53,365 nucleotides of DNA from Lachnospiraceae bacterium (GTDB lineage Bacteria; Bacillota; Clostridia; Lachnospirales; Lachnospiraceae): contig JAQXZD010000118.1 of the NCBI GenBank assembly GCA_029227035.1, positions 1 to 53,365 on the forward strand. Reading direction: 5' to 3'. Shown piece by piece: positions 1,022 to 47,744 of this stretch. Position 1 is the stretch's first letter; the number at the start of each line of letters is the position of its first letter. The position numbers and the translations under genes were made by a program. Under the pieces are notes generated by a model. The model was given only the letters and a program-made list of their open reading frames with translations, was not told the DNA's origin and ran no database searches.

Positions 1022-2185
1022 TTATAGCATATCTTGTAACATAAAACCGACACTGATCTGCAGGCGGTTATTCAGGGAGGACAGATCCATGTCCAGAAGC
1101 TCGGAAGCCTTGTTCAGCTTATAGTTGATGGTATTGCGATGCACGAACAATTCGTCGGCAGTTTCTTTGACACTTCCGTTGTGGTTCAGATAGCAGCGGA
1201 GTACAATCGCAAGATCCGAATCATTTTTTTCATCATATTCCACCAGAGGACGAATCGTTTTATTATAGTATTCCACCATAATATCTTTATCTTCAATTCC
1301 CAAAAGCAGTTTATAGATACCCATATCGGAATAGAAAATCAGGGAAGATTCAATTTTTCCTTTTTCCTGCAATTTCTGAATTGCTTTTGCCTGGCGATAG
1401 CTCTTATAAACGCAACGAATACTTCTGGTGAGCTTTCCGCAGCCCATTGTGATGGTTTCACCGGAGGCAAGGGAGGAAAGCGCATGATTATGAATATAAT
1501 CAATGAATTCATGAAGCTGTTCTTCGGAATAATTTCCGGTTACAATAAGAAGCTCCGTTTCTCTGGAAAAAACGGCAAAATTTTTGTATTTATGTCTGGC
1601 ATAGTTATCGATGCTGGAAGAGAACTGCTCCAGACGCAGCGGAAGGTTGGTGGAGCAATGCTCAAGCTGCATGACACAGACGGAATACTTCCAGTTCATA
1701 TGAAATCCCTGCTGGGACAGCGGAACAATATATAATTCTTCCTGCTTTGGAAAGAAGATGGAATTCTTGAATGCGGCAGCAGTTTCCAATGCGCGCTGGT
1801 CATCCTTTGTAATGGTATAACAGAAGATACGCATAACTTCCGCCAGATGAATTTTCCACGGAATAACAAAAAGCGGAAAGGAATGTTCATTGCAGAAATC
1901 AATGACTTCCTGCGGAACAGACTCGATAAAAGGTCCGATGTTGACAACCATGCCGGAAGCATTTCCACTCTGGATATGTTCCACCAGACTTAAAAGACTT
2001 GTGCTGTTATTCAGTCCCACACCTGTCGTAAAGGCAATTTCGCCGCCCTGCAAAAAGTCGGTAGCCTCGGTGGTTTCTATCATATGTACCCAGCTTACCA
2101 GATTGTGAATTCCCTGTTCACCGGCAATAATTGTCACATCCATATGTGCCACTTTTTCAATTAATCTTTGTAATTCTACAGCCAT
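1022..2185 (-). CDS. PucR/CdaR-family transcriptional regulator of the pyrimidine catabolic locus
   Basis: A 387-residue regulator. The N-terminal ~120 residues match the PucR-type sensor domain (an IIAGEQGI stretch, then FLQGGEIAFTTGVGL). The last ~65 residues form the PucR-type helix-turn-helix (RCYLNHNGSVKETADELFVH, RNTINYKLNKA). The middle resembles the GGDEF-like CdaR region. The start chosen is the ATG at 2185 because GAGGTG is correctly spaced there; a TTG 12 bases further upstream would overlap that site. It is divergent from the aminotransferase gene, and two palindromes of one type sit ahead of the two main catabolic promoters, so it is the natural candidate for binding them. The effector is unknown; a pyrimidine or pathway intermediate is inferred from context. 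Confidence 0.85.
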   Translation of the reverse strand: MAVELQRLIEKVAHMDVTIIAGEQGIHNLVSWVHMIETTEATDFLQGGEIAFTTGVGLNNSTSLLSLVEHIQSGNASGMVVNIGPFIESVPQEVIDFCNEHSFPLFVIPWKIHLAEVMRIFCYTITKDDQRALETAAAFKNSIFFPKQEELYIVPLSQQGFHMNWKYSVCVMQLEHCSTNLPLRLEQFSSSIDNYARHKYKNFAVFSRETELLIVTGNYSEEQLHEFIDYIHNHALSSLASGETITMGCGKLTRSIRCVYKSYRQAKAIQKLQEKGKIESSLIFYSDMGIYKLLLGIEDKDIMVEYYNKTIRPLVEYDEKNDSDLAIVLRCYLNHNGSVKETADELFVHRNTINYKLNKASELLDMDLSSLNNRLQISVGFMLQDML

Positions 2186-2210
2186 ACTGCACCTCAATTC
2201 TTTCTAAACG

Positions 2211-2365: not shown

Positions 2366-2401
2366 GGGGAATATCAAAAAGGGAAAGGAAGGATGATAAA
2401 T

Positions 2402-3727
2402 ATGACATCACAAGAAATAAAAGAGAACGCAAAGAAGTATGTACTTCAGTCCTGGAGTAAGCAGGGAAATTTGAATCCGATACCGGTTGAAAAGGCAGAG
2501 GGAATTTATTTTTACGACTATGACGGAAACCGTTACACGGATATGTCATCACAGCTTGTAAATTTAAATGTAGGTTTTGGTAATCAGGATATTGCAGATG
2601 CCATCAAGGCACAGGTTGACAAGTATTGTTTTGTCGGACCGTCTTATGCGGCTGAGTCCCGCGTGGAGCTGGCAAAGATGATTGTAGATTTGCTTCCGGA
2701 TAATTTCGGAAAGGTATTTTTTACAAATGCCGGTGCAGATGCCAATGAGAACGCAATCAAGATTGCAAGAATGTATACCGGAAGAAAGAAGATTTTCAGC
2801 CGTTACAGAAGCTATCATGGTTCTTCCTTCGGAGCAGGTAATCTGACAGGAGAGCCGAGAAGATATCCGCTGGAGCCGGGAATTCCGGGATTTGTAAAAT
2901 TCTTTGATCCATATATTTACCGTGAGCCGATTAACTTTGCATCAGAGGAAGAGGCAACCAATTATTATCTCACAAAGCTGAGAGAGCAGATTATATACGA
3001 AGGACCGGATCAGGTAGCTGCAATCGTAATGGAGACAATTACCGGATCAAACGGTATCATTATTCCACCGAAGGGATATCTGCCGGGAGTCCGTAAGATT
3101 TGTGATGAGTTCGGAATTGTCATGATTTGTGACGAAGTTATGGCAGGCTGGGGAAGAACCGGAAAGATGTTCGCTTTTGAGAACTTCGACGTAAAGCCGG
3201 ATCTTGTAACCTTTGCAAAAGGTGTTACCTGTGGATATGTTCAGCTTGGCGGTGTAGCTGTCAGCAGTGAGATTGCATCATACTTTGATGATCATGTTCT
3301 TTCCTGCGGCTTGACCTACAGTGGACATCCGCTCGCATGTGCAGCAGGTGTTGCCTGTGTAAACTACTACTCCAAGGCAAACATTCTGGACAATGTCAAC
3401 AAGGTTGGCAAAGTGCTGGGCGAGGAGCTGGAGACTTTGAAAGAAAAGCATGCCTGCGTCGGTGATGTCCGTTACATAGGACTGTTCTCCTGTGTTGAGC
3501 TTGTCAAGGATAAGGCAACGAAGGAGCCGATGGTATCTTACGGCAAGGATCCGGACGGAGTCATGGGTAAGATTGTCGGAATGCTCAAGGAGCGCAAGTT
3601 TATGACATACTCTCATGAGAATATGATTTTCGTCTGTCCGCCGCTTATCATTACAGAGGAGCAGTTAAAAGAAGAGATGGCAAAAATGGACGAAGTACTT
3701 GGCATTGTGGATAAAGAATTTCTTTAA
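2402..3727 (+). CDS. pydD: Class III PLP aminotransferase, probable beta-alanine aminotransferase
   Basis: A 441-residue cytosolic fold-type I aminotransferase. Seen: the PLP phosphate-contacting region FTNAGADANENAIKIAR, the stretch MICDEVMAGWGRTGKMF with the cofactor-binding Asp, and the Schiff-base Lys in LVTFAKGV. The ATG at 2402 is preferred over an ATG 9 bases upstream because AAAGGAAGG is well spaced only for the former. It is followed closely by an iron-type alcohol dehydrogenase. In extended reductive pyrimidine pathways this pair converts beta-alanine to malonate semialdehyde and then 3-hydroxypropionate. Similar enzyme pairs act on taurine, but the neighbouring dihydropyrimidinase, PreA and amidohydrolase genes favour beta-alanine. 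The substrate is inferred. Confidence 0.8.
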   Translation: MTSQEIKENAKKYVLQSWSKQGNLNPIPVEKAEGIYFYDYDGNRYTDMSSQLVNLNVGFGNQDIADAIKAQVDKYCFVGPSYAAESRVELAKMIVDLLPDNFGKVFFTNAGADANENAIKIARMYTGRKKIFSRYRSYHGSSFGAGNLTGEPRRYPLEPGIPGFVKFFDPYIYREPINFASEEEATNYYLTKLREQIIYEGPDQVAAIVMETITGSNGIIIPPKGYLPGVRKICDEFGIVMICDEVMAGWGRTGKMFAFENFDVKPDLVTFAKGVTCGYVQLGGVAVSSEIASYFDDHVLSCGLTYSGHPLACAAGVACVNYYSKANILDNVNKVGKVLGEELETLKEKHACVGDVRYIGLFSCVELVKDKATKEPMVSYGKDPDGVMGKIVGMLKERKFMTYSHENMIFVCPPLIITEEQLKEEMAKMDEVLGIVDKEFL

Positions 3728-3765
3728 TCAAAAAGTGTGGACAACAGGGGAAGGAAGTGATTAGA

Positions 3766-4920
3766 ATGGCACATTTTGCAATACCTTCGCACATATTGGT
3801 CGGAAAGGATGCCCTTTCCTCAGCGGGGACTTATTTGAAATCATATGGAAACCGTGCATGTATCGTAACAGGTAAGCATGTGGGAAAATCACCTATGATG
3901 GATAAATTGAAGAAGACTTTGGAGAAAGAGCATATTGCTTATTATGTCTTCGACGGTATTACCGGAGAACCAACCGATAAAATGATAGAGGAAGGGCTTG
4001 CGGCATACAAATCGGCAAATTGCCAGTTTGTCATTGGAATCGGAGGAGGAAGTCCTCTGGATTCCGCAAAAGCGATTGCTGCAATGGCAGTAAATGAAGG
4101 AAAGATTGCTGATTATAATGGAAAGGAAATTACTGGAAAGGTTCCGGGAATCGTTGCAATTCCAACTACTTCCGGAACAGGCTCCGAGGCAACCAAATTC
4201 ACCATTATTACGGATCAGGAAAAAGACATTAAGATGCTTCTGAAAGGAGATTGTCTGGTACCGGATCTGGCAATCGTGGATCCGGATTTTACCATGGATA
4301 TGCCAAAGAGTGTGACAGCAGCAACAGGACTTGATGCGCTGACACATGCGGTGGAGGCTTATACTTCCAAGAAGGCATTTTCCATGACGGATATCTATGC
4401 CATCTCTGCGGTAAAGCGGATTATGAAGTATCTGCCAAGAGCTTATCAGAACGGTTATGATGCCACAGCGAGGGAAGAGATGTCGCTTGCGGCACTGGAA
4501 GCCGGTATCTGTATCAATAATTCCAGCGTAACGATTGTGCATGGAATGAGCCGGCCAATCGGAGCATTGTTCCATGTACCGCACGGAATGAGCAATGCGA
4601 TGCTTTTGAAGGAATGTCTGGGATTTGCACTGGACGGAGCCTACGATCGTTTTGCGGACCTTGCAAGGGCAATCGGGGCAGCCACCGAAAGTGACAGCGA
4701 CGAGCTGGCAGCGAAGGCATTACTTGTAGAGATTGAAAAGCTCTGCAAAATATGCGAGATTCCGACATTGCGTGAATACGGAATCAAAGAAGAGGACTTT
4801 ATGCCGGTTGTTGAGAAGATGGCAGAGGATGCAGTTGCATCCGGAAGTCCCGGAAATACAAGGAAAACTGTTACAAAAGAAGATTGTGTTGCAATCTACC
4901 ATAGAATCTACGAATCGTGA
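3766..4920 (+). CDS. pydE: Iron-containing alcohol dehydrogenase, probable malonate semialdehyde reductase
   Basis: A 384-residue NAD(P)-dependent group III dehydrogenase. Visible motifs are GIGGGSPLDSAKAIA (nucleotide binding), PTTSGTGSEAT, GLDALTHAVEAY, and HGMSRPIGALFHVPHG, which supply the Asp/His metal ligands of the family. The ATG at 3766 has AAGGAA 9 bases ahead; a GTG 9 bases upstream overlaps that site. It forms one unit with the preceding aminotransferase. The inferred role is reduction of malonate semialdehyde to 3-hydroxypropionate, which clears the aldehyde and regenerates oxidised cofactor. Confidence 0.8.
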   Translation: MAHFAIPSHILVGKDALSSAGTYLKSYGNRACIVTGKHVGKSPMMDKLKKTLEKEHIAYYVFDGITGEPTDKMIEEGLAAYKSANCQFVIGIGGGSPLDSAKAIAAMAVNEGKIADYNGKEITGKVPGIVAIPTTSGTGSEATKFTIITDQEKDIKMLLKGDCLVPDLAIVDPDFTMDMPKSVTAATGLDALTHAVEAYTSKKAFSMTDIYAISAVKRIMKYLPRAYQNGYDATAREEMSLAALEAGICINNSSVTIVHGMSRPIGALFHVPHGMSNAMLLKECLGFALDGAYDRFADLARAIGAATESDSDELAAKALLVEIEKLCKICEIPTLREYGIKEEDFMPVVEKMAEDAVASGSPGNTRKTVTKEDCVAIYHRIYES

Positions 4921-5074: not shown

Positions 5075-5866
5075 ATGAGTGAATTGAAAGAAAGAGAAAT
5101 TGAAATAGAAATCAAGGATCTGGGAGTTACCTTTCAGGATAACGCCGGAAATGATGTTCAGGCACTTACCGGTGTCAATCTTGACATATATAAAGGAGAG
5201 TTCATTTCATTACTTGGACCTTCCGGATGCGGTAAAACAACATTGCTTCGATCCATCGCAGATCTGCAGGAGCCAACGGAAGGAACGGTTCGTATCAGCG
5301 GAATGACTCCGAAGGAGATACGTCTTCAGCAGAAGTTCGGATTCGTCTTTCAGCAGCCGGTATTGTTTGACTGGAGAACCGTAAAAAAGAATGTAGAGCT
5401 TCCGCTTGAGATTATGTACCAGTCCAAGGAAGAGCGTTCCAAGAGAGCAGATGAAATGCTGGAGATGGTTGGACTTAAGAATTTTGCAAACCATTTTCCA
5501 AAGCAGTTGAGCGGTGGTATGCAGCAGAGAGTAAACATTGCGAGAGCTTTTGGAATCCGTCCGGAGATTCTCCTGATGGATGAGCCGTTCTCAGCATTGG
5601 ATGAGTTCACCAAAGAGAAGCTGCATGAGGATTTGCTTCGTATATGGAGACAGACAAACAAGACCGTAGTATTCGTTACCCATAATATTCAGGAGGCGGT
5701 GTTCCTTTCAGACAGAATCTGTGTATTATCACCGCATCCGGGAAGATTATCTGCAGTTGTTGATGTTGATTTACCGAGACCAAGAACATTGGAGATGAAA
5801 GAAACACAGCACTTTAATGAGCTTGTTCTTAAAGTTCGCAACAGCTTTGAAGGGGGCAGTGTTTAA
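5075..5866 (+). CDS. ABC transporter ATPase subunit (nitrate/taurine/pyrimidine type)
   Basis: A 263-residue ATP-binding subunit. Seen in order: Walker A GPSGCGKTT, the Q-loop in FVFQQPVLFDW, signature LSGGMQQR, Walker B ILLMDEPFSALDE, and the switch His in VFVTHN. The family is the SsuB/TauB/ThiZ group that energises uptake of small organic molecules. GGAGGGAAAGAG precedes the ATG. Its stop overlaps the next start (TAATG), so it is translationally coupled to the first permease. Context suggests import of a pyrimidine or related base. Confidence 0.9.
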   Translation: MSELKEREIEIEIKDLGVTFQDNAGNDVQALTGVNLDIYKGEFISLLGPSGCGKTTLLRSIADLQEPTEGTVRISGMTPKEIRLQQKFGFVFQQPVLFDWRTVKKNVELPLEIMYQSKEERSKRADEMLEMVGLKNFANHFPKQLSGGMQQRVNIARAFGIRPEILLMDEPFSALDEFTKEKLHEDLLRIWRQTNKTVVFVTHNIQEAVFLSDRICVLSPHPGRLSAVVDVDLPRPRTLEMKETQHFNELVLKVRNSFEGGSV

Positions 5867-6705
5867 TGAAGAGAATAAATAAATTATTTGAAAAAAAATG
5901 GGCATCCACCCTTATGTGGATTATCCTTCTGATCGTCGCGTGGGAGATTGCAGCAACTGTTGTTGCGGCAACAAAGCGGACACCGGAGAATATCATGCCG
6001 CATCTGTATCAGATTCTTGCAGCAGCATTCTCCACAAAGCCGGTAGCTTCCGGAATGAGTGCAACGATGGTAGTGCTGACAAGTGCACGCGCCACAATCC
6101 TTCGTGCATTGTTAGGATTTCTGGTAGGAACAGGTATCGGTTTTCTGTTGGCACTGGTTATGAAAATGTCCGGTATTTGTGAGAAGATGCTTTTTCCGTA
6201 CCTGATGCTGATTCAGTTGATTCCGGTACTCGGACTTGCACCGATTATTTTCTCCATAACCGGAGATATCAATAAAAGCCGTGTTATCATTGCCGGAATC
6301 CTGAGTTTTTACCCGGTGGCAACCAATACACTGGCAGGATTTAAGTCCGTAGACAAAGATAAATACGATCTGATGTATACATATGCAGCAAAGAGACGGA
6401 CCATTTACACAAAAGTGTTGATCCCATCCGCGATTCCGTACTTTTTCACAGGAACCAAGATTGCAGCACCGATGGCAATTACAGCATCTATCCTTGTAGA
6501 TACCTTACAGGGTGATGGCGGATTAGGATGTATGCTTTCACAGTCGTTGAAGCATGCGATGTCCATATATGTATTCTGGTTGATAGTATTCTTTAGCGCA
6601 TTTATCGGTGTATTCAGCAGTTGCTTAATGACCTGGATAGAAAATCTGATTTCTCCGGAAAAAAGGGGACTTCGAAAAGCAGCGAAGATGAAGGGAGGAA
6701 ATTAG
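5866..6705 (+). CDS. ABC transporter permease subunit 1
   Basis: A 279-residue inner-membrane permease with about six hydrophobic segments. The cytoplasmic EAA-type loop that docks on the ATPase is visible (LMYTYAAKRRTIYTKVLIPS, then AIPYFFTG). It overlaps the ATPase gene by one base. A second, clearly different permease follows one base later, so the channel is probably a heterodimer. Confidence 0.88.
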   Translation: MKRINKLFEKKWASTLMWIILLIVAWEIAATVVAATKRTPENIMPHLYQILAAAFSTKPVASGMSATMVVLTSARATILRALLGFLVGTGIGFLLALVMKMSGICEKMLFPYLMLIQLIPVLGLAPIIFSITGDINKSRVIIAGILSFYPVATNTLAGFKSVDKDKYDLMYTYAAKRRTIYTKVLIPSAIPYFFTGTKIAAPMAITASILVDTLQGDGGLGCMLSQSLKHAMSIYVFWLIVFFSAFIGVFSSCLMTWIENLISPEKRGLRKAAKMKGGN

Positions 6706-6706
6706 T

Positions 6707-7546
6707 ATGGCACAGAAAAGAAAAAGACCGAAAAGTCTATACCGCCGGATGAAAGAAAATAAGAAAGTTCAGGCAGTTGCCACCGTACTTCTTCCGGTTC
6801 TGCTGGGTATAGTGATTTTATCACTCTGGCAGACACAGGTGCTTCATCATTGGTTTAAGACAGATACATTTACACTTCCCCTGCTGGACAGAATCGGAGT
6901 GATTATATCCGAGAATACAGGAAAGATTTGGGAGAACGTCGTAGCGACCATGACGGTTGCCATTATCGGACTTGTAGCAGGAAGCCTGCTTGGTTATGGA
7001 GTTGCCGTACTTGCGGCACTTTTCCCAAGGGCAGGAAAAGGAGGCTTAAGCGTTATCGGCGCATTTGCATCGATTCCGGTAGTCGCTCTGGCACCGGTTA
7101 TGAACAACTGGACCAAAGATGTTTCCAATGACGCAAGTACACGAAGCATGGTTGCAAAAATTCTGGTGGTTATGCTGATTGCAGCCGCAGACATGGGACT
7201 GAATGCATACAGAGGCCTGACGGAGCTTAAGCCTTATGCCAAAGACCTGATGGCAACTTACGCAGCAAAGAAACGGACAACTTTTGTGAAGCTTCAGCTT
7301 CCGAATTCCGTACCTTATATATTTGTAGCACTGAAAGTATCCGTACCGGCAAGTATCATGACGGCAATCGTAAGTGAGTACTTTGCTGAGTACATAACAG
7401 GAGTCGGACGACAGATTCGTGAGAATATCGTATTGTCGCAGTATTCGACAGCGTGGGCATACATTGCAACCGCCTGTCTCCTGGGCATCATATCTTATGT
7501 GGTGCTGATGATTGTACAGAGTATTCTTCTCCGAAGATATCACTAA
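6707..7546 (+). CDS. ABC transporter permease subunit 2
   Basis: A 279-residue permease starting with a basic stretch (KRKRPKSLYRR), then several membrane segments. The EAA-type loop reads DLMATYAAKKRTTFVKLQLP. AGGGAGGA lies just ahead of the ATG at 6707. It pairs with the preceding permease and feeds the binding protein that follows. Confidence 0.88.
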   Translation: MAQKRKRPKSLYRRMKENKKVQAVATVLLPVLLGIVILSLWQTQVLHHWFKTDTFTLPLLDRIGVIISENTGKIWENVVATMTVAIIGLVAGSLLGYGVAVLAALFPRAGKGGLSVIGAFASIPVVALAPVMNNWTKDVSNDASTRSMVAKILVVMLIAAADMGLNAYRGLTELKPYAKDLMATYAAKKRTTFVKLQLPNSVPYIFVALKVSVPASIMTAIVSEYFAEYITGVGRQIRENIVLSQYSTAWAYIATACLLGIISYVVLMIVQSILLRRYH

Positions 7547-7593
7547 CAGATATCCCGGATTGAATATATAGGTTAAAAAAGGAGGAAATGAGT

Positions 7594-8742
7594 ATGAAAA
7601 AGAGAATGACAAAAATGGTGAGCGCAATGCTCATAGCAGCAATGACAGCAACAATGGTAGTAGGATGCGGTTCATCCGATAAGAAAGAAGAAGGCGGTTC
7701 TTCATCAGGAAGTACAACACAGGCAGCCGCAGATACATCTTCCGTGATGAGCCATGAGGAAATCATCAAGAAGGCAGCAGCAGATGGAAAAGTCGGTAAC
7801 TGGGGACTTGGAAATGAGTATGAGGTACTGGCACTTCTTGCAAAGTATGGTCTTCCAACAGAGTATCTGAGTGAGGATTTCACAATGGATGGTTTTGATG
7901 ATGATTCCATTACACTGGCATCCGCAATGACTTATAACGAGCTTGGACTGACCAAGAATGATTATGAAGGTGGATATGGATACGGTGATACCGTTGGTTA
8001 TATTGATATGAACGATGAAGGCGTAGCAATGCTGGAGGATAACATCTTCTGTTCCAAGACTTTTGCAAAGGAAAATCCGGAGACCGTAAAGGCATTCCTG
8101 TATGCATCCTTAAAGGGTTGGGAATATGCAGTAGAGAATCCGGATGAAGCAGCACAGATTTGTTTTGAGGCAGGTTCTTCCGTATCGCAGGATCACCAGA
8201 GCTATATGGCAGGCGAGGTTGCAAAGCTTGTTTCTACCGATATGAACGGTAATGCAGTAACAGATGACATCGGAAAGATTAATACGGATGCAATGCAGCA
8301 GACTCTGGATATTGCAAAGCAGTATGTAACCTTGGATGACTCTGCAGCACAGGAAGCATTCTCCAAGCTGACACTTGATGATATCTGTGATTCTTCTTTC
8401 TATGATGAAGCTAAGGCTTCCGATGGAAAGTTCAATGTTGAAAAGTCTGAGGTATCCATTCAGTTGAAGTGGCTCCCACAGGCACAGTTCATGGGTTACT
8501 TCGTAGCTGATGCAAAGGGATATTATGATGAGGTTGGTTTAAAGGTTAACATCGTATCCGGTGGTGGAGATATCTCCGAGACAACCGCAGTAAATAACGG
8601 AACCGTAGATTTTGGTGTAACATGGCCGACAAACATGGCAGTTGCTGATGCAGGTGGAATGGATCTGGTTGAGATTGCCCAGATTTACCAGAGATCAGGA
8701 CTGACACTGGTTTATAAGTATGACAACTTCAAGGCAGAATAG
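7594..8742 (+). CDS. NMT1/THI5-type substrate-binding lipoprotein, apparently circularly permuted
   Basis: A 382-residue lipoprotein. The signal peptide ends in a lipobox (MVVGC, Cys25), followed by a Gly/Ser-rich linker. In this family the mature protein normally begins with the stretch VSIQLKWLPQAQFMGYFVA and later reaches VGNWGLGNEYEVLALLAKYG. Here the order is reversed. The second-half sequence comes first (residues 67 to about 275, including SAMTYNELGL, GVAMLEDNIF, ASLKGWEYAVENPDEA). The first-half sequence (residues 287-382, including FGVTWPTNMAVA and IAQIYQRSGLTLVYKYD) forms the C-terminus. Both parts look intact. The start at 7594 is used because GGAGG is 8 bases ahead; the ATG at 7588 is too close. 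The substrate is probably a pyrimidine, inferred from the family and the neighbouring catabolic genes. Confidence 0.88.
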   Translation: MKKRMTKMVSAMLIAAMTATMVVGCGSSDKKEEGGSSSGSTTQAAADTSSVMSHEEIIKKAAADGKVGNWGLGNEYEVLALLAKYGLPTEYLSEDFTMDGFDDDSITLASAMTYNELGLTKNDYEGGYGYGDTVGYIDMNDEGVAMLEDNIFCSKTFAKENPETVKAFLYASLKGWEYAVENPDEAAQICFEAGSSVSQDHQSYMAGEVAKLVSTDMNGNAVTDDIGKINTDAMQQTLDIAKQYVTLDDSAAQEAFSKLTLDDICDSSFYDEAKASDGKFNVEKSEVSIQLKWLPQAQFMGYFVADAKGYYDEVGLKVNIVSGGGDISETTAVNNGTVDFGVTWPTNMAVADAGGMDLVEIAQIYQRSGLTLVYKYDNFKAE

Positions 8743-8754
8743 GAGATGTGTAAT

Positions 8755-10119
8755 ATGGAATTACTGATTAAAGGAGGAACCGTTGTAACCGCAACCGAAA
8801 GCTATGTGGCAGACGTTGCAGTGGACGGTGGAAAGATTGTAGCAATCGGAAAAGACCTTTCTGTTTCGGCAGATAAAGTTGTAGATGCGACGGGCAAGCT
8901 TGTGCTGCCCGGCGCACTGGATGCACATACACATATGCAGATGCCGTTTGGCGGAACCGTATCTGCCGACAGCTATCTGGCAGGAACCAGAGCAGCAGTC
9001 TGTGGCGGTGTTACAACAATTTTTGATTATCCGGTACAGCATAAGGGCGAGACCATTCTCGGACTGGTCAATTCCAAGAAAGAGATATTAAAGACAGATG
9101 CCTGTTGTGATTACGCATTCCATTGCTGCATTACAGACTTAAATAACGGAGAAATCCTGGATGAGATGGAAACAGCAGTTGAGGAAGGTATTACCAGCTT
9201 TAAGTGCTTCCTTGTATACAAGAAGGAAGGAATGATGGTTGATGACGGAATGTTAGCCACACTTTTGCTCCGTGCAAAGGAACTTGGCGCAATGATTAAC
9301 GTCCATGCCGAGAATCCTGACCTGATTGATCTGCGGACAGAGAAGTATCTGAAGGAAGGTAAGACCTCTGCTTGGTACCATTACATGAGTCGTCCGGAGT
9401 TTGTAGAAGCAGAAGCCGATAAGAGAGTCGTTCATTGGGCAAGTCATCTGGATACACCGGTATATCTGGTACATATGGCAGATAAGGAAGGACTGGAGGC
9501 CTGCATTAAGGCAAAAGAAGAAGGACATGATGTTCTGATTGAGACATGCCCGCAGTACCTTGAGTTTACCTGCGATGTATATAAGAGAGAAGACGGACGC
9601 AACTTTGTATGTTCTCCGCCAATGAAGGGACAGGAGAGTCAGGATGCGCTGTGGACAGCATTAAAGGCAGGACTGATTGATACGGTTGCAACCGATCACT
9701 GCCCATTCCAGAGCTATGAAAAGGATTGGGGAAAAGATGATTTTACCAAGATTCCGAATGGTTGTGCAGGTGTTGAGAACTTATATCCATATATGCTAGA
9801 TGCAGCAAATTCCGGCAAGATTTCTTTTGAACGTGTGGTAGAGGTTTGCTCCACAAACGTAGCAAAGATTTTCGGCTGTGACAATAAGGGAGCAATTGCA
9901 ATCGGTAAGGATGCAGACATTGTTATCTATGATAAGGATAAGGATTACACCATCAGTGTTAACAATATGCATTCTGATTATGACCATACCATCTGGGAAG
10001 GAAAGAAGCTGCATGGATATCCGGTGCAGACTTACCTGAGAGGTCAGTTGGTATACGATAACGGCGAATATGTCGGAACACCTGGTATGGGTGAATACAT
10101 TAAGAGAAGTCACAGATAA
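8755..10119 (+). CDS. pydB: Dihydropyrimidinase (hydantoinase family)
   Basis: A 454-residue amidohydrolase that opens dihydrouracil/dihydrothymine to the N-carbamoyl-beta-amino acid. Seen: the metal-binding DAHTHMQMP near residue 57, the carbamylated Lys in SFKCFLVYK near residue 150 with the substrate-contacting Tyr, metal His residues in INVHAENPD and VYLVHMAD, and the metal Asp in VATDHCPF. The start at 8755 has AGGAG 9 bases ahead; the ATG at 8746 abuts that site. Hydantoin is an alternative substrate, but the adjacent PreA-type dehydrogenase and carbamoyl amidohydrolase support the pyrimidine route. Confidence 0.92.
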   Translation: MELLIKGGTVVTATESYVADVAVDGGKIVAIGKDLSVSADKVVDATGKLVLPGALDAHTHMQMPFGGTVSADSYLAGTRAAVCGGVTTIFDYPVQHKGETILGLVNSKKEILKTDACCDYAFHCCITDLNNGEILDEMETAVEEGITSFKCFLVYKKEGMMVDDGMLATLLLRAKELGAMINVHAENPDLIDLRTEKYLKEGKTSAWYHYMSRPEFVEAEADKRVVHWASHLDTPVYLVHMADKEGLEACIKAKEEGHDVLIETCPQYLEFTCDVYKREDGRNFVCSPPMKGQESQDALWTALKAGLIDTVATDHCPFQSYEKDWGKDDFTKIPNGCAGVENLYPYMLDAANSGKISFERVVEVCSTNVAKIFGCDNKGAIAIGKDADIVIYDKDKDYTISVNNMHSDYDHTIWEGKKLHGYPVQTYLRGQLVYDNGEYVGTPGMGEYIKRSHR

Positions 10120-10140: not shown

Positions 10141-11625
10141 ATGGCATACGAAGAAATTAAGATAAAAAATGAAACAGGAAGGTGTCTGTTGTGTCAGGAT
10201 GCTCCTTGCAACAGCGCTTGTCCAAAAGGACTTCCGGTAGCAGAAATTGTACGTTCGCTCCGTTTTGAGAACGAAGCCGGAGCAGCGAAAAAGTTAAAGG
10301 AAATTAATCCATGTGAGGGATGCAGTGCTCCATGTATGGAGAGCTGCATCCGCAGTAAGATTGATACAGGAATCGATATTCCGATGCTTATTTCAAATAT
10401 CGGAGAACAGGAGCAGACAGATATCACCCCGGATTTGTCAATTGATTTTTGTGGGGTACATTGTGAAAATCCATTTTTCCTTTCCTCGTCAGTGGTAGGA
10501 AGCGATTATGAGATGGTGGCAAAGGCATTTGATCTTGGCTGGGCCGGAGTAGCATTTAAGACGATTGGTCTGTTTACTCCGAATGAGGCATCTCCAAGAT
10601 TTGCCGCACTGGAAAAAGAAAGCAATCCATTTGTGGGATTTAAAAATATAGAGCAGATATCCGACCACACACTGGAAGAAAATTTGGGATATTTAAGAGA
10701 ACTGAAGAAGAATTATCCAACTAAGGTGATTATTGCATCCATTATGGGGCAGAACGAAGATGAGTGGACAAAGCTTGCAACTTTGATGGAAGAGGCAGGT
10801 GCAGACATTATAGAGTGTAATTTCTCATGTCCGCAGATGGTAGGCGAAGGACTCGGAAGTGATGTGGGTACAGATCCGGATCTTGTGGCAAGATATACAG
10901 CAGCAACAAAGCGCGGAACCAAGCTTCCGGTACTTGCCAAGATGACGCCGAATATTACAAAAATGGAAATACCGGCAGAGGCAGCCGTGGCTGCCGGAGC
11001 AGACGGACTGGCCGCAATCAATACCATAAAGAGTGTTATGAATGTAGATCTGGGCTCTTTTGCTTCGGCACCGGATGTGGCAGGAAAATCAGCAGTCGGA
11101 GGATATTCCGGAAAGGCAGTAAAGCCGATTGCGCTCCGCTTTATCCATGATATGCGTAAAGATGCCAAGCTGGAAAATGTGCCGATCAGTGGTATGGGAG
11201 GCATTGAAACTTGGCGTGATGCGGCAGAATTTATGGCACTGGGCTGTGAGACACTTCAGGTTACAACAAGTGTCATGCAGTATGGATACAGAATTATCGA
11301 AGACATGACCGACGGATTGAGCAATTATTTATCCCGCATTGGAGCGAAATCCGTAAGTGAAATTGTCGGAAAGGCATTGCCAAATCTGGTACCGGCCGAA
11401 GATGTTGACCGGAGTACCATTGAATATCCGAAATTTCACCGTGATACCTGCGTAGGCTGTGGCAGATGTTATATCTCCTGTTTCGACGGAGGACATCAGG
11501 CATTGCGTATGGATGAACAGAGACAACCGATTATGGATCCGAAGAAATGTGTGGGATGCCAGTTGTGTAAAGTGGTGTGCCCGACAGGATCTATTACGGC
11601 GGGAACCAGAGTAACCAAAAAATAA
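10141..11625 (+). CDS. preA: PreA-type dihydropyrimidine dehydrogenase with a PreT-like Fe-S N-terminus
   Basis: A 494-residue flavin/iron-sulfur enzyme reducing uracil or thymine. Residues 15-75 carry Cys clusters ([16 protein letters not shown] and [12 protein letters not shown]) that resemble the N-terminus of PreT / domain I of mammalian DPD. Residues ~95-400 are the FMN barrel, including [30 protein letters not shown] and [10 protein letters not shown]. Residues 436-480 hold two 4Fe-4S motifs ([11 protein letters not shown] and [11 protein letters not shown]). The FAD/NAD(P)H part of PreT is absent, and no separate gene for it is seen in the window, so the electron donor is unclear. GGAGG precedes the ATG, 21 bases after the dihydropyrimidinase gene. 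Confidence 0.9.
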
Positions 11626-11653
11626 TATTTTATATAAAAGGAAGGTGCAGATT

Positions 11654-12916
11654 ATGTATACATGTAGTTTGGAAAGAATGACAGATAAGATTAAAACATT
11701 TTCTCAGTTTGGAGATGCCGGACACGGCGGAATTACACGTTATTCCCTTTCACCGGAAGCAATTATGGCGCGTAACGAATTTAAAAAACGTATGGAGGCA
11801 ATCGGAGCCATCATTGAGGTGGATGATGTAGCAAATATGTATGCAACACTTCCGGGTTCAGATCCGGATGCAAAGAGAATCGTTATGGCATCCCACTGTG
11901 ACTCCGTAAAGAACGGCGGTAACTATGACGGTATCCTGGGTGTTATGTCAGCAATGGAAGTACTTGAGACCGTTGTAGATCAGAACATCCCGCATAAGCA
12001 TCCGCTGACCGCAATGATTTGGACCAATGAGGAAGGTTCTCTTTATCCGCCGGCAATGATGTGTTCCGGAATTGTCTGCTATGATTATCTGCCGGAGAAT
12101 ATCCGCAGCGGATTCAAGTATGAGGACATGATGAATTCCAAGAGTATTCTGGACAATGAGAGCACATTCGGAGAGGCTCTTGAGAAGTCCGGATTTAAGG
12201 GAGACAAGAAGTATCGTCTTTCTCCGGAAAACTATGAATACTATTTTGAGACACATATTGAGCAGGGACCAATCCTTGAGGATGCCGGCAATGACATCGG
12301 TGTGGTTGACTGTGTACTGGGAATGTTCAATTACCGCTTAAAGTTCTACGGACAGACTACACATGCCGGAACTTTCCCAATGCCAAAGAGAAAAGATGCA
12401 TTCCTTGCAGCTTCCGAGGCTCTGTGCTATCTGCATGAAGAGATTGACAAACTGGGTTACCCGGAGCTTGTATATACCACAGGTGAGGTGGTTTGCCATC
12501 CATGCGTACATACCTGTGTACCGGATTTCTTTGATTTCTCATTTGATGCAAGACATGAAGATCCTAAGGTACTGGAGAAAGTCCTTGCAATCGTAAAGAG
12601 CTGTGAAGAAAAGACCTGGGCAGGATGTAAATGTGAGGTTGTCAAGGCTTGGAACCGTGATACCGTATACTGGGATAAGAAGCTGGTTGGATATGTTAAG
12701 GAATCAGCAGAAGAGCTTGGTGTATCTCATCAGTACATTCATTCCGGTGCCGGACACGACGCACAGTTTGCAGCATATATGCTTCCTGCAACCATGATCT
12801 TTGTACAGTCAAAGGACGGTCTGTCACATTGTGAGCCTGAGTATTCTTCTCCGGAGCATTGTACAGAAGGTGCATCCGTTATGCTGAATGCCGTACTGAA
12901 GGCAGACGCAGAATAA
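11654..12916 (+). CDS. pydC: Zn-dependent amidohydrolase of the M20 carbamoylase family, probable N-carbamoyl-beta-alanine amidohydrolase
   Basis: A 420-residue enzyme releasing ammonia and CO2 from N-carbamoyl-beta-alanine to give beta-alanine. Family motifs: MASHCDSVKNGGNYDGILG (metal His and bridging Asp), TNEEGSLY (catalytic Glu pair), ETHIEQGPILED (metal His), and HSGAGHDAQF near the C-terminus. The ATG at 11654 is chosen because the GTG at 11645 overlaps the AAGGAAGG site. Allantoate or N-carbamoyl-amino-acid hydrolases share these motifs, so specificity is inferred from the dihydropyrimidinase and PreA neighbours. Confidence 0.88.
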   Translation: MYTCSLERMTDKIKTFSQFGDAGHGGITRYSLSPEAIMARNEFKKRMEAIGAIIEVDDVANMYATLPGSDPDAKRIVMASHCDSVKNGGNYDGILGVMSAMEVLETVVDQNIPHKHPLTAMIWTNEEGSLYPPAMMCSGIVCYDYLPENIRSGFKYEDMMNSKSILDNESTFGEALEKSGFKGDKKYRLSPENYEYYFETHIEQGPILEDAGNDIGVVDCVLGMFNYRLKFYGQTTHAGTFPMPKRKDAFLAASEALCYLHEEIDKLGYPELVYTTGEVVCHPCVHTCVPDFFDFSFDARHEDPKVLEKVLAIVKSCEEKTWAGCKCEVVKAWNRDTVYWDKKLVGYVKESAEELGVSHQYIHSGAGHDAQFAAYMLPATMIFVQSKDGLSHCEPEYSSPEHCTEGASVMLNAVLKADAE

Positions 12917-12943: not shown

Positions 12944-13414
12944 ATGAAAAAAATATTGGTAAGCAAATGTCTTTACGGCGGTGAGATTGTCCGCTATGAT
13001 GCCGGTGACACTACAGAAAAGGATCCACGGTTTCTGAAGTGGAAAGCCGAAGGACGTCTGGTGCCGGTGTGTCCGGAAGTGTTTGGAGGACTTCCGACTC
13101 CCCGCCCGGATTCGCAGAGAATTGATGCGGTTCATGTGCAGGCGCAGACAGGTCAGGATGTGACAGAGGAATACACAAAAGGTGCCAAGGAGGCGCTTCG
13201 CCTTGCAAAAGCCGAAGATGTGGCATTTTGCATTATGAAGCAGGACAGTCCGTCCTGCGGAAGTAAGTATATCTACGACGGAACATTTACGGATACCAAG
13301 GTTCCGGGGCAGGGACTTGCAGTGGAATATTTACGAAATGCCGGATTCAAGGTATTTGCAGAGGAAGACATGGACGAGGCAGCAGAGTATTTAGCGTCGT
13401 TGGAAGCGGAGTAA
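12944..13414 (+). CDS. DUF523 family protein
   Basis: A 156-residue protein of the DUF523 family, function unknown. Typical stretches are ILVSKCLYGGEIVRYD at the start, VPVCPEVFGGLPTPRP, and the Cys-containing MKQDSPSCGSKYIYDG. The paired Cys residues suggest a metal or redox role, but that is not established. GGGGAGGACAGG precedes the ATG. It follows the amidohydrolase by 27 bases and probably belongs to the same operon. Confidence 0.85.
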   Translation: MKKILVSKCLYGGEIVRYDAGDTTEKDPRFLKWKAEGRLVPVCPEVFGGLPTPRPDSQRIDAVHVQAQTGQDVTEEYTKGAKEALRLAKAEDVAFCIMKQDSPSCGSKYIYDGTFTDTKVPGQGLAVEYLRNAGFKVFAEEDMDEAAEYLASLEAE

Positions 13415-13429: not shown

Positions 13430-14056
13430 ATGCAAAATTATGTGATTACCATTGCCCGAGGCTTCGGCAGCGGAGGAAAAGATATCGGAACCCGGTTAGG
13501 CAAGGAACTTGGGATTCCGTGTTATGAGAGACAGATTCTTACAATGGCATCAGATCAGAGCGGAATCGACGAGAGCGTTTTCGTTGAAACAGATGAGAAG
13601 CTCAGAGGTAAGTATCTGGCGAATTTTTTGCGGAAGATGCCGGTAAGCGGTGTAGTTGAACCGATGGAGAGAGACTTTATCTCAGATGTCAATGTGTTCA
13701 ATATTCAGGCAGACATCATCCGCACACTTGCCAATACAGAGAGCTGTATCATTATCGGAAAATGTGCAGATGATATTCTCCGTAATTATACGAATGTCAT
13801 CAGCGTGTATATTGAAGCTCCGCGCGCCGCATGCGTTAAGTCCATTGTGGAAAAAATGCATGTAACGGAAAAGAGGGCAAATCAGCTTATTCATGATACA
13901 GACAAGTATCGTGCAAAATATTACAGTTATTATACTTCCGGAAAGGACTGGACCAATCCGATTAATTACGACCTCGTGCTGAACAGTGACCGTGTAGGGC
14001 GCGAGAAATGTGTACAGATCATCAAGGAGTACATTAAGATTAAATTCGGAGAGTAA
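13430..14056 (+). CDS. Cytidylate-kinase-like P-loop protein
   Basis: A 208-residue protein of the cytidylate-kinase-like family. The P-loop reads ARGFGSGGKDIGTRL, followed by the family pattern LGIPCYERQIL. It is not the housekeeping Cmk; related proteins are of uncertain substrate. Being the last gene of the pyrimidine operon, it may act on nucleotides, but this is only inference. GGAGG is just upstream of the ATG and a terminator follows the stop. Confidence 0.8.
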   Translation: MQNYVITIARGFGSGGKDIGTRLGKELGIPCYERQILTMASDQSGIDESVFVETDEKLRGKYLANFLRKMPVSGVVEPMERDFISDVNVFNIQADIIRTLANTESCIIIGKCADDILRNYTNVISVYIEAPRAACVKSIVEKMHVTEKRANQLIHDTDKYRAKYYSYYTSGKDWTNPINYDLVLNSDRVGREKCVQIIKEYIKIKFGE

Positions 14057-14063
14057 TTATCAA

Positions 14064-14092
14064 AATAGCTGGCAGCTGCCGGCTATTTTTTT
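14064..14092 (+). terminator. Intrinsic terminator of the pyrimidine operon
   Basis: AATAGC (14064-14069) pairs with GCTATT (14082-14087) with an inner GGC/GCC stem, then a run of seven T. The group II intron starts two bases after the T-run. Confidence 0.85.
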
Positions 14093-14494
14093 ATGTGCGC
14101 CTTGCGGCGCACGTTTCTAATGGGTGAAAGTCCCTAATCCGCCCTAGTAGTGGGAAGGATACAGTCAAAACCAAGGGTGTCCATCGTGAGGTGGAATCTG
14201 AAGGAAGGGGGAGGCAAATCTCTGGTCTGACGAACAGAAATCACATTAGGCTATAATTAGGGATAAGACTGCATAACAAGTTGAAGTCCAATAACTACTC
14301 GGAACTAATTATAGTAAATGTGGCAGATATGTGGAGAGAAAGAAACGAGTGGTACCAAGGGAGGTCTTGTCAACAAGTGGAAACAGAGTATGAGACTTGT
14401 AGTAATAACGAATGGCAAGAAGTCAGCAGAGGTCATAGTACCATTGTGGTTGCAAACATGGTGGGAAGGACTGAACTTTAGGAGATGTGAGTAA

Positions 14495-15014
14495 ATGAAA
14501 GTAACCAAAGATGGATTCAAGGACAGACAACTTCATATTGAGGACTATCTGCAAATGGTATCTGCGGAACAGAAAGAGTATGCAGAAGTGCACATAATGC
14601 ACTAAAGCAGTGCCAAACAAATGTAAATGATTCATCGAAGGAAAGCTATTCTTGAAAGTGAACCGAGAAAAGACTTGTGTGTCGCATATCAGCAAAGTCA
14701 AATACCTTGGGTATAGCTTTTATAATTACCGAGGAAAAAGCAGATTCAGAGTACACCCAAAATCAGTTACGAAGATGAAGAATAAAATCAGGGCAATCTA
14801 TTGGAAACAATGGAAAAAGACTAGAACGAGATACAAACGCCTTAGAGCGTTGGGAATGGAAGAAGAACAAGTGCACAAGCACGCAAACAGTCGTCGCGGA
14901 ATATGGTTTTGTAGCGGATTGCAATATTTCAACTATGCATTAGATAATACAAAACTCCGTGAGGATGGATTCCCAACGTTCACAGAGTTTTACTTGAAGA
15001 TATGTGAAAACTAA
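14495..15014 (+). pseudogene. ltrA: Remnant of group II intron reverse transcriptase/maturase
   Basis: Two coding pieces remain. Bases 14495-14605 encode a 36-residue N-terminal fragment that ends at a stop. Bases from about 14632 to 15014 encode the C-terminal part, with the RT-thumb-side stretch KVNREKTCVSHISKVKYLGY, then RFRVHPKSVTKMKNKI, then the maturase/X-domain end (IYWKQWKKTRTRYKRLRALG). The palm domain with the catalytic YxDD is missing, and a further internal deletion joins KIRA directly to IYWKQWKK. It cannot encode an active enzyme. Confidence 0.85.
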
Positions 15015-15015
15015 A

Positions 15016-15093
15016 GAACCGCCGTGTACGGAACCGTACGCACGGTGGTGTGGGAGGTCGGTAGATAAAATAATTATCTACCTCCTACCCGAT
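15016..15093 (+). ncRNA. Group II intron domains V and VI
   Basis: Domain V: CCGCCGTG pairs with CACGGTGG around an upper TACG-GAAC-CGTA stem-loop, with the usual 2-nt bulge (CG) on the 3' side and an apparent CGC triad. Domain VI: GGTAGATAA/TTATCTACC hairpin followed by the CCTACCCGATT end. Confidence 0.75.
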
Positions 15094-22777: not shown

Positions 22778-22835
22778 ACATGGTAAAATGAGTATTATGA
22801 GGATAAAAGCGTAAAAGAAAAGGAGAATGGGAATC

Positions 22836-25800
22836 ATGAAGAAACGCACAGTAAACGAACATGTTATTAAAGCTATTTCCATTGGATTGTCAGCTATGAT
22901 GGCAATGTCACCGGTGACAGCCATGGCAGAGGAGATTGGGGAACAGCCGGATGGCAGCAATGAACCGATAGAAGCAAATCAGAAAGAAGAAACCGCGCAG
23001 GATATTGCAGATGCTGCAACTAAGACAGCAGGAGAGATTCAGGAAGATGCAAAAGCGGCAAAGCTTGTTGCGGATGATGTGAATGCAGTTGAGGAAGACG
23101 GAACGGAATTAGATAAAGCAGGAACTGCATTGGATAAGAGCCAGAAAACTGTAACAGACGACGCAGAGAATGTAAAGAAAGATCTTGCGGATGCAAAGAA
23201 TGAAGCAAATGCGATAGATAATTCGCTGGATCAGGCAGACACCGTGGTAGATGCAGCAGTAGAAGCAGCAGAAAAGGCAGCTTCAGATATTGCAGCAAAG
23301 AAGGATGTCTATGACAAGCAGGTAGCAGAGATTTCTTCTGCCAAGACAACGGAGGAAGCTAAGAGTGCTTATGATAAAGCACAGGCAACCGCAGAGGAGG
23401 CACAGGCAGCATACGATGCAGCAGTAGATGAATACAACAAGAACAAGACTGCTTATGATGAAGCAGTAGCGAAAGTAGCAGAGGCACAGAAAGCATATGA
23501 TGCAGCAGTAGCGAAAGCGGCAGGAGATGCTGCAGAGGCAGAAAAAGCGTTGGAGCAGGCGAAGGCAGATGCGGAAGCATTAAAGACGGCTGCAGATCAA
23601 TCCGCAAAGGAGGCTGCGGAAAGTGCAGCTTATAAGGTTGCAGAGCTCGAGAGGAAGGCACAGTCGCATAAAGATATTGATTGGAATGAGCAGGATAAAC
23701 TCTTCATTGCCATCATGAATAATTATTATCTTCCACAGCAGGATAACGTGAAAGAGGTTATCAGTAATGTTGTGACAAAATATGCGGATGATTCCAAGAA
23801 CTTCTTCACTGTGAAGTATAAAGACAATAACGGAGAAGAGCAGACGGCATATTATAACTACAAGCTGGACGAGAAGAAGAATCTTGTTATTTTTGAGAAG
23901 ACGTTCGAGGATGTTCTTGTAACTCCGGGTGAAGAAGCTCAGTACGTTATTAATGATGCAGAAGGAAATACAGAATATAGTTGTCCGGAAAGCGAGCTTC
24001 AGAATAAGCTCGATTCAGGAGAGATTATTAATGTCGGATCTGATGAGAAACCGGTATATGCTAAGGTTAATGCAGACGGCACTACAACAACTCTGGTAAC
24101 AGCGGGAGAGACAAAGAAAGGTAATGTGACTACCAATGTTGAAGTTGACAATACAAAGGTAGATTATGTCTATGACGCAGAAACAGATACTTATACAAAG
24201 GTTGAGAAGGGTGATGTCACAACAACCAAGACCTATTCCGGGGTGTCACTTTCTTCCGATAAGAAGTATGCAACTAAGGCAGAAGCTGAGGCAGCGGCAA
24301 AGGCAGATGCAGCAGCAGAAGCAGAGAAGCTTGCAAACGGTGAAAAGGTTACGGATGTTGCGACAGATGTGAAAATCAGCGAAGAAAAAACAACAACATA
24401 TACCGGAAGTGCTACTTATATATCTGCATTTACTGCAACGATTGACATGGGTGGAATTAAAGAGAATTCCTGGTCAAAAGCAAGTGATGTTGCAAAAAAT
24501 ATCAAGAAGGATGCAATTAAAGATGCAGAAGATGAATTGTGGGATAACGGCTATTATCTGCTAGATAGTAACGGTAATGTTCAGGTTAACAAGACAAAGG
24601 ATAACAAAATCTGGGCGGATGAGTATACAACAACGGCAGATTCTTCCATTACTCTTACTTACGCAAAATATGAGACGCAGGAAGTCAAGTATACCTTGTG
24701 GGACGATATCAAAGATATATTCCAAGGCGATAAAAACAAGGATAAAGCTGCCAAAGCAATAAAGCAGAAGATAGAGGAACAGGGCGGTCTGTTTATTGAT
24801 ATCAAAGAATTTAACTGGGATCTCGGAACAGCAACCTGCTATGTTATCCCAAGTCAATCAGTTACAGCAACCGATGAGCAGAAGACAGCATCAGCAGCGA
24901 GTACAGCAGCCCAGAAAGCTGCAGAAGAAGCAGCAAAGAAGGAATCTGTTTCTAATAGTGTTCTTCAGAAAGTGTCTAAGGAGGTAACCGGTTCTAAGAA
25001 TAAGGTTAAGACAAATGAAGCAGTTGCAACCAGCATAAAGACCAGCACAAAGTCAGAGACCGAGACTTCCTATAAGTATAGCGGAACCTACACAGCTACA
25101 ACGGTAACAGTTGCAGATGGTGTTGAGATTTCTAAGGTCAGCGGTTATGCAACAGAATTGGCTTATAAGGATAAAGTAGATCCGGTTTATGATAAGAACT
25201 GCCCGACGAATGCAAATTATCTTGCAGGCAATATTCTTTTGAATGAGAAGACAGACGAGGGACTTCGTAATTATATTGAGACAGCTAAGAAGAAGAAAGC
25301 AGATTATGACAGAATTGTAGAAGAGGCTAAAGCAGCAGACGATGCTGTGGCAGATGCACAGAAGAAAGTCGATACTCTTAAGAATCAGATTGAACTTCTG
25401 GAGAAGAAGAAGACCACAACGGCTGCAAAACTGGCAGATCTCGAAGCACAGCTTTCAAAAGCAGAGGCAAAACTTAAGGATGCAAAGGATACCGCAGATA
25501 CTCTTAAGGATGCCGAGAAAACCTATAAGGATAAGGTTGCAGCACTTACACCGCCAGGTGGAAATGGTGGCAACGGTGGAAACACCGATAACGGTGGAAA
25601 CGGTGGCAACACCGATAACGGCGGAAACGGTGGCAACACTAACAACGGCGGAAATGGTGGAAACACCGATAACGGTGGAAACGGCGGCAACACCAATAAC
25701 GGCGGAAACGGCGGCAACACCAATAACGGCGGAAACGGCGGCAACACGAACAATGGTGGAAACACCAATAACGGTGGAAACGGTGGCAACACCAATAACG

Positions 25801-32181: not shown

Positions 32182-32289
32182 AGGGTAATAAATTGGCGAA
32201 ATTTGCCGATATACATAAGAGATAAAATAAACCGTAGCAATAAGGACATTGTTAGGTGCGAATGGAGTCGCTAATAGAGAAGAGACAGA

Positions 32290-32319
32290 AGCTCAGCATC
32301 GAAGATGCTGGGCTTTTTT
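32290..32319 (+). terminator. Hairpin terminator just ahead of the polysaccharide cluster
   Basis: AGCTCAGCATC (32290-32300) pairs with GATGCTGGGCT (32304-32314) with one mismatch, followed by TTTTTT. The first polysaccharide gene starts only 17 bases after the T-run. Confidence 0.8.
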
Positions 32320-32335
32320 AGTAGGAGGAGAAGGA

Positions 32336-33673: not shown

Positions 33674-33819
33674 ATGGAACAGGAAAGAAGAACTCTAAAG
33701 ATAGGAATGATTGGATTAGAGATTTTGAGGAGTCATAGGAATAACAGGAGGAGATGTGGTTTGAACAATGTATGGAATAGAGTATGCCAAAATAATGGGA
33801 AATGAATGGAGTAAAAAGC

Positions 33820-35550: not shown

Positions 35551-35722
35551 ATACGATATAGAATAAAGTTATCATAAACTATAAACATTTTCTGACATTA
35601 TCCGATATATAGGATAGGTTGACAGGGAACGTCAGAGAAAACATCATGGATGATTAAAAATGAATGGTGAGAGATTAAAGATTAGGCTCCGAGTGTTGTA
35701 GGGATAGTATTATGTGATGGAT

Positions 35723-35755
35723 AAGCTGACGTAAATTGAAATACGTCAGCTTTTA
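35723..35755 (+). terminator. Hairpin terminator ahead of the licD gene
   Basis: AAGCTGACGTA (35723-35733) pairs perfectly with TACGTCAGCTT (35742-35752), then TTTAT. It lies 20 bases before the licD start, in a 225-base gap that otherwise shows no gene. Confidence 0.75.
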
Positions 35756-35775
35756 TATTGTGTGAGGTTAGATAA

Positions 35776-36603: not shown

Positions 36604-36615
36604 AATACAAATTGT

Positions 36616-38523: not shown

Positions 38524-38553
38524 ATTGATATTGAAAAATCAGTAGAGAATTTC

Positions 38554-39540: not shown

Positions 39541-39567
39541 TCTAAAATAACAAAAAGGATAAGGAGT

Positions 39568-40719: not shown

Positions 40720-40782
40720 AGGTGGCAACTATTTATTGGTATATAGAAGTGTAAAGTTATAATAAATGTTAGGAGAATTTTC

Positions 40783-43247: not shown

Positions 43248-43264
43248 TTATAGAGGAGAGCATA

Positions 43265-44662: not shown

Positions 44663-44680
44663 TGCTGGAAAGGAGAGATT

Positions 44681-45364: not shown

Positions 45365-45379
45365 AAGGAAGTGAGAAAA

Positions 45380-46288: not shown

Positions 46289-46312
46289 TTAAAATAGAAT
46301 GAAGGTAGTGAA

Positions 46313-47729: not shown

Positions 47730-47744
47730 TTTTGAGAGGTACAT

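Follow-up and report, generated by a model that had tools for sequence, protein, structure and literature searches.

Does the binding protein of an ATP-binding cassette (ABC) importer from a gut-type Clostridia lineage really carry the two parts of its chain in exchanged order, and if so, how did this order arise and what could it change? The question is raised by the contig JAQXZD010000118.1 of a Lachnospiraceae bacterium (GenBank assembly GCA_029227035.1), which was analyzed here over its whole length of 53,365 nucleotides (hereafter, the window). The first-pass annotation, made from the sequence of the window alone, had taken one of its proteins (P0001) for a naturally circularly permuted NMT1/THI5-type substrate-binding protein, i.e., one that begins with the later part of the usual chain and ends with the part that normally opens it.

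The Pfam profile NMT1 (PF09084) matches the window protein in two stretches with 106.5 bits (gathering cut-off, 20.5), and these stretches stand in reversed rather than in the usual order, the best of them placing residues 297-377 on profile positions 2-82. If the pieces are scanned singly, the C-terminal one covers profile positions 2-82 and the N-terminal one positions 96-216; if they are rejoined in the usual order, a single stretch results, which spans positions 2-216 of 216 with 108.5 bits. The comparison with this profile, proposed by the annotation as a check, has therefore given two matches in reversed order. A simple truncation, which the annotation had rejected as well, is ruled out by the complete coverage of the profile by the rejoined chain. 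In the alignment to unpermuted orthologues the joined old termini lie at about residues 276-285, as the annotation had expected. The sequence is thus that of a usual-order homologue after joining of the old ends and opening of new ones, and the circular permutation of the window protein is real.

The same order is seen against solved structures. The thiamin-precursor binding proteins 3ix1 and 4nmy and yeast Thi5 (4h65, 4h6d) belong, like the window protein, to the NMT1/THI5 proteins by sequence and fold, but 4nmy, 3ix1 and 4h6d have the usual order: against each of these three, the N-terminal piece aligns to the later part of the chain and the C-terminal piece to its start (the individual stretches are weak on their own for 3ix1 and 4h6d). 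Furthermore, three other permuted members show two NMT1 stretches each, whereas the usual-order relatives at loci L117, L144, L161 and L162 show one stretch each, covering profile positions 2-216 or nearly so. Because the chain is permuted, order-bound annotation sees only part of it; the best NCBIfam match, SsuA_fam, is confined to residues 150-195 and reaches 33 bits (cut-off, 163.5). A reading as two separate products was rejected, as by eye the junction of the halves has no in-frame start with a ribosome-binding site. Matches to the Pfam families IpaB_EvcA and DUF4969 were below the cut-offs and were taken as chance.

The window stems from a draft assembly (85.6% complete, 121 contigs), in which an error of assembly or binning could in principle create the appearance of one reordered gene, either from two neighbouring ordinary genes or through a chimaeric contig. 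A scan of named genomes, however, revealed 42 related loci, and 39 of them, from other species, have both pieces in permuted order on one open reading frame (with an incomplete first piece in L046); the remaining three (L048, L052, L056) are truncated at a contig end or close to one. The permuted loci include the complete chromosome NZ_CP121445.1 (Anaerocolumna sp. AGMB13025), the isolates Ruminococcus bromii ATCC 27255 and Catenibacillus scindens DSM 106146, and a Spirochaetota draft genome (Pleomorphochaeta, L047); the order recurs in one genome of the window's own genus as well. In view of these independent genomes the artefact was rejected, its probability being vanishingly small: the rearrangement is inherited.

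The permuted form was found in 10 of the 200 genomes of a family sample queried with the whole permuted protein. An order sample gave matches in 15 of 295 genomes (12 permuted, 3 usual), and a class sample searched with the rejoined query (E up to 1e-25) in 10 of 391, of which six have the permuted form (one of them together with a usual-order relative), one is cut at a contig end and three have only the usual form; note that these samples overlap in some genomes. Among the 40 genomes nearest to that of the window, only two possess the gene, the window's own and that of the same genus, hence its distribution is patchy. The window's own genome holds four other matches to the protein, which extend over no more than residues 5-56, where signal peptide and linker lie. 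Viral contigs contained no relative of either P0001 or the unpermuted L144 protein.

Unpermuted counterparts exist, and they occupy the equivalent position in the operon. In a sample of 398 genomes from the phylum, four gave usual-order matches to the rejoined query at 43-46% identity and three more at 34-35%, and further ones were found in the order and class samples. The proteins of L116-L119 are 42-45% identical to the rejoined chain over 87-93% of its length (BLAST of open reading frames). At all eight loci L116-L119, L143-L145 and L161 the unpermuted gene immediately follows the two permease genes, and the cluster also contains the dihydropyrimidinase and dehydrogenase genes of reductive pyrimidine degradation (Pyd), which in L161 are on the other strand; the dihydropyrimidinases of L117, L143-L145 and L161 are 68-73% identical to that of the window. 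These eight unpermuted Pyd binding proteins share with the window protein the family, the gene place and the special columns described below; they differ from it in the usual chain order (a single NMT1 stretch in the three that were scanned, i.e., L117, L144 and L161) and in the lipid anchor, which would precede the other lobe. Both forms occur together in the genome G1206: the permuted protein is part of a Pyd cluster (L163), and the usual-order one (L162), which is more distant, has no adjoining Pyd genes. The latter belongs to a second group of usual-order NMT1 importers (L162:9005-10051 and L164:7870-8916), 34-35% identical to the rejoined protein; no Pyd gene was matched on either locus, and each has a gene for an enzyme dependent on pyridoxal phosphate.

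How often did the order change? A tree of 52 binding proteins (18 permuted ones rejoined by script and 34 usual ones) places the permuted rows on one side of a branch with 100/100 support, so that the order needs a single change, compared to 15.1 on average with shuffled labels. The permuted rows group with 14 usual-order rows, including the eight Pyd orthologues (99/99); within this group their exact place is weakly supported (85/59), and the permuted branch is long (1.2). In an independent tree of the ATPase and both permeases (37 rows), all 23 permuted systems are on one side of a 100/100 branch, which again lies inside a 99/99 group with seven usual-order systems. The permutation is probably a single ancient event in an importer of reductive pyrimidine degradation, and we hold it very likely that permutation and single origin are both correct for the window protein. 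An ordinary NMT1/THI5-type ancestor would have been circularly permuted once during the history of the importer, most simply through tandem duplication, fusion and trimming.

The C-terminal piece could instead have been acquired from a different binding-protein gene by shuffling rather than from the protein's own duplicated copy, an origin considered by the authors of TpMglB-2 for their protein (in the part of PMC4990184 consulted); note that a donor from inside the Pyd group would be indistinguishable from an own copy. Against the proteins of L116-L119, however, both pieces are clear matches, with 47-56% identity for the C-terminal and 42-44% for the N-terminal one. Both pieces also retain columns special to the Pyd group. 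Of 109 alignment columns invariant in the eight usual-order Pyd proteins, 78 reach at least 90% conservation across 56 permuted rows (31/42 in one piece, 47/67 in the other), and 47 of these 78 occur only rarely (under 30%) among 17 other NMT1 proteins. At three additional invariant columns the permuted rows show gaps, including a glycine and a cysteine taken as the lipobox, which was trimmed during rejoining. Finally, trees were calculated for each piece separately (14 permuted, 8 usual Pyd and 17 other NMT1 rows). In both trees the piece falls with the usual-order Pyd proteins, apart from the others, at 100/100, the permuted and usual Pyd rows forming sister groups, with 94/85 and 94/93 support for the permuted branch. 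Shuffling has become less probable because of these separate trees, and we regard it as highly improbable compared with a duplication of the protein's own gene.

Where was the chain opened? The annotation had put the new termini at a lobe-crossing hinge, and this detail did not survive: according to the alignment to unpermuted orthologues, the cut falls in the loop that follows the strand LLLVSK and precedes the helix (S)PADLKGK, and in the structure models the chain ends with the strand at residues 370-375, while the fold begins with the equivalent helix at residues 54-63. Two confident models were obtained, with a predicted local distance difference test score (pLDDT) of 86.0 and 82.4 and a predicted template modelling score of 0.82 and 0.81; residues 1-44 have a pLDDT below 50 nearly throughout in both. 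Over its first 230 residues the modelled fold can be superposed on the later portions of 4nmy and Thi5 (4nmy 97-301 on model residues 50-275, Thi5 96-306 on 48-276). Since the opened loop follows the first crossing strand, both lobe-crossing strands are retained. We take the NMT1 fold to be of type II, and the assignment of the cut to a lobe presumes the usual layout of such folds; the models accordingly read would place the new termini in a loop of the second lobe. The tail past the last YK is 1-7 residues long in 92 of 92 permuted open reading frames (overlapping loci of one gene counted repeatedly).

In such a protein the fold and the ligand cleft would be preserved, with about 10 residues bridging the old ends, and with two crossing strands remaining, closure around the ligand in the manner of a Venus flytrap should persist. 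The lipid anchor would now be carried by the second lobe rather than the first. The annotation had suggested that opening dynamics or anchor geometry could be altered; any present effect of the permutation would concern the position of the anchor rather than the number of hinge strands. One may go further and suppose that, through the two-fold pseudosymmetry of the fold, the cut in lobe 2 corresponds to the position where the usual termini stand in lobe 1. From residue ~63 onwards the chain would then follow the common type II topology with exchanged lobes, and this may have been selected, as the anchor on the other lobe turns the protein relative to two unlike, co-diverged permeases; this idea is tentative, and we are inclined to doubt it. 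As betaine-binding proteins with a similar fold are likewise linked by permutations, a cut of this kind may have been used in nature more than once.

The genes around the binding protein and the parts of the protein itself are listed in Table 1. As judged by profile matches, this surrounding gene set is that of reductive pyrimidine degradation. The family NF004718, the best match of the putative aminotransferase gene, is itself named hypothetical protein, and the next matches of this gene are aminotransferase families under their cut-offs. The lipobox, recognized by eye, and the adjoining genes for an ATPase and two permeases identify P0001 as the lipoprotein binding component of an ABC importer. 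Cys25, the last residue of what we take to be its signal peptide and lipobox, is invariant in 37/37 aligned rows of one alignment and 38/38 of another. An AGGAGG motif at 7580-7585 precedes ATG 7594 by 8 nucleotides; as the in-frame ATG 7588 is only 2 nucleotides away from this motif, 7594 is the likelier start.

Table 1. Pyd gene cluster of the window and layout of the permuted binding protein.
Feature	Position	Strand	Evidence
PucR-type regulator, divergent	1022..2197	-	PucR 110.6 bits, HTH_30 66.2 bits
Aminotransferase (putative PydD role)	2393..3727	+	NF004718 560.8 bits, cut-off 472
Member of the iron-type alcohol dehydrogenase family (putative PydE role)	3757..4920	+	NCBIfam matches, all below cut-offs
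ABC importer ATPase	5075..5866	+	ABC_tran 124.7 bits; conserved neighbour
Permease A	5866..6705	+	BPD_transp_1 82.9 bits
Permease B	6707..7546	+	BPD_transp_1 56.2 bits
Binding protein (P0001)	7594..8742	+	Uninterrupted open reading frame, 382 amino acids
Lipoprotein signal peptide (residues 1-25), with Cys25 closing the lipobox	7594..7668	+	Cys25 invariance
Low-complexity linker, residues 26-53	7669..7752	+	Low pLDDT; relatives differ in length
First piece, residues 54-275, later two thirds of the usual NMT1 protein	7753..8418	+	NMT1 profile 96-216
Linker uniting the old C- and N-termini, residues 276-285	8419..8448	+	Alignment to unpermuted orthologues
Second piece, residues 286-375, usual NMT1 beginning, ending with the first crossing strand	8449..8718	+	NMT1 profile 2-82 at 297-377; strand 370-375
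Short C-terminal tail and stop	8719..8742	+	Tail length in permuted open reading frames
Dihydropyrimidinase (PydB-like)	8746..10119	+	TIGR02033 488.5 bits, cut-off 393.25
Dihydropyrimidine dehydrogenase (PreA/PydAc-like)	10141..11625	+	NF006183 580.3 bits, cut-off 335; DHO_dh and 4Fe-4S
N-carbamoyl-amino-acid amidase (putative PydC role)	11645..12916	+	TIGR01879 326.4 bits, cut-off 204
2-Thiouracil desulfurase family gene, after the Pyd genes	12944-13414	+	PF04463 135.6 bits

The importer is linked to dihydropyrimidinase and dihydropyrimidine dehydrogenase genes beyond the window as well: the ATPase, both permeases, the permuted protein, the dihydropyrimidinase and the dehydrogenase are all present in 30 of the 42 loci and the dihydropyrimidinase in 37, and the 12 loci without some of the six genes are short (3.0-10.4 kb vs up to 17 kb). 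Judging by this neighbourhood, the ligand of the permuted protein is fairly likely to be a pyrimidine. The membrane-anchored protein would enclose a pyrimidine base, or a product of an early step of its breakdown, and pass it to the permease pair. It is conceivable, though unlikely, that the neighbourhood is merely co-regulated and that the ligand is another compound, e.g. a thiamin precursor, riboflavin or an amino acid, as thiamin or thiamin precursors are, to judge from entry titles or molecule names, the ligands of the nearest solved NMT1 relatives, and as the related unpermuted importer of L162 stands apart from Pyd genes although its genome possesses a permuted one too. The six-gene linkage speaks against this, as do a similar Pyd linkage of the unpermuted clusters of other families and the presence of a 2-thiouracil desulfurase family gene next in the window. 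The latter gene suggests salvage of thiolated pyrimidines by the cluster. Past the following cytidylate-kinase-like gene (13430-14056), a 12-pair terminator-like hairpin with a T run at 14062-14089 (+) marks a possible operon end; in this region, terminator-like hairpins were not in clear excess (11 found vs 9.1 expected from shuffles).

An equal enzyme set is known from Clostridia: a ferredoxin-dependent dihydropyrimidine dehydrogenase (PydAc) was described in Clostridium chromiireducens (PMC7332683, consulted in part), and the dehydrogenase of the window likewise has dihydroorotate-dehydrogenase-type and ferredoxin parts. In the main text of that paper, as far as it was covered, transporter, permease, substrate-binding and uptake are not mentioned. 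Anaerostipes hadrus is reported to break down pyrimidine and 5-fluorouracil (PMC11036815, in part), and in this paper an ABC transporter appears only in a pathway list. Among the 10 papers listed for a known function of such an importer, none dealt with the subject, judged by title.

Is a natural permutation of such a protein without precedent? The annotation knew of none in this importer family, and for the NMT1/THI5 proteins this stands: no report was found in the literature, in a search of open-licence papers where absence is not proof. The only paper combining NMT1 and circular permutation, PMC11240957, deals, according to its listing, with drug-binding affinity. Similarly, in the portions covered, PMC2861598 (on OpuA of L. 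lactis) has no mention of permutation, swap or topology, PMC9732360 uses permuted only of green fluorescent protein, and PMC10087775 has nothing on permutation. For binding proteins of ABC importers in general the claim does not hold, as two cases have been published, both recognized from solved structures according to the parts of the papers covered (PMC4990184, PMC2395249).

The first of them, TpMglB-2 (Tp0684), is a naturally permuted glucose-binding lipoprotein of an ABC importer, with relatives mostly in treponemes and Gram-positive bacteria (PMC4990184, in part). Like the window protein, it is permuted and lipid-tethered, and its chain closes with the counterpart of the region that opens the usual protein. 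According to the excerpts of the same paper, its permuted portions are poorly conserved in sequence, in contrast to the clear sequence identity found here, and its fold is the type I sugar-binding one, in which the permutation needs a fourth crossing. By its sequence the window protein is not of the TpMglB-2-like type Ic, as only NMT1 passes its cut-off and NMT1_2 comes near to it. Presumably of type II, it differs from TpMglB-2 in fold and has two crossings. The second case is that of the glycine-betaine-binding proteins, B. subtilis OpuAC (2b4l) being among the proteins treated (PMC2395249, in part). These have another ligand and resemble the window protein in fold only; the OpuAC family gave no Pfam match to it at E up to 10 (where filters drop most matches above about 0.1).

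The permuted and unpermuted forms described here are clear orthologues with an equal gene place in one type of importer, and some occur within one bacterial order. They constitute a matched natural pair for probing how chain order and anchor position affect binding and import.

Elsewhere in the window, a group II intron is present at 14180-15088 (+), with domain matches RF02001, RF01998 and RF00029. It holds only an open reading frame of 120 residues, which has no Pfam match and presumably resembles the end of a reverse transcriptase/maturase; the intron-encoded protein is probably truncated. A surface-type protein of 1116 residues is encoded at 22827-26177 (+) and has, by eye, a Gly-Asn-rich repeat stretch near its C-terminus. 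Finally, a run of genes at 32249-48836 (+), including nucleotidyltransferase-, aminotransferase- and glycosyltransferase-like open reading frames, resembles by eye a cluster for the synthesis of cell-surface polysaccharide or teichoic acid.
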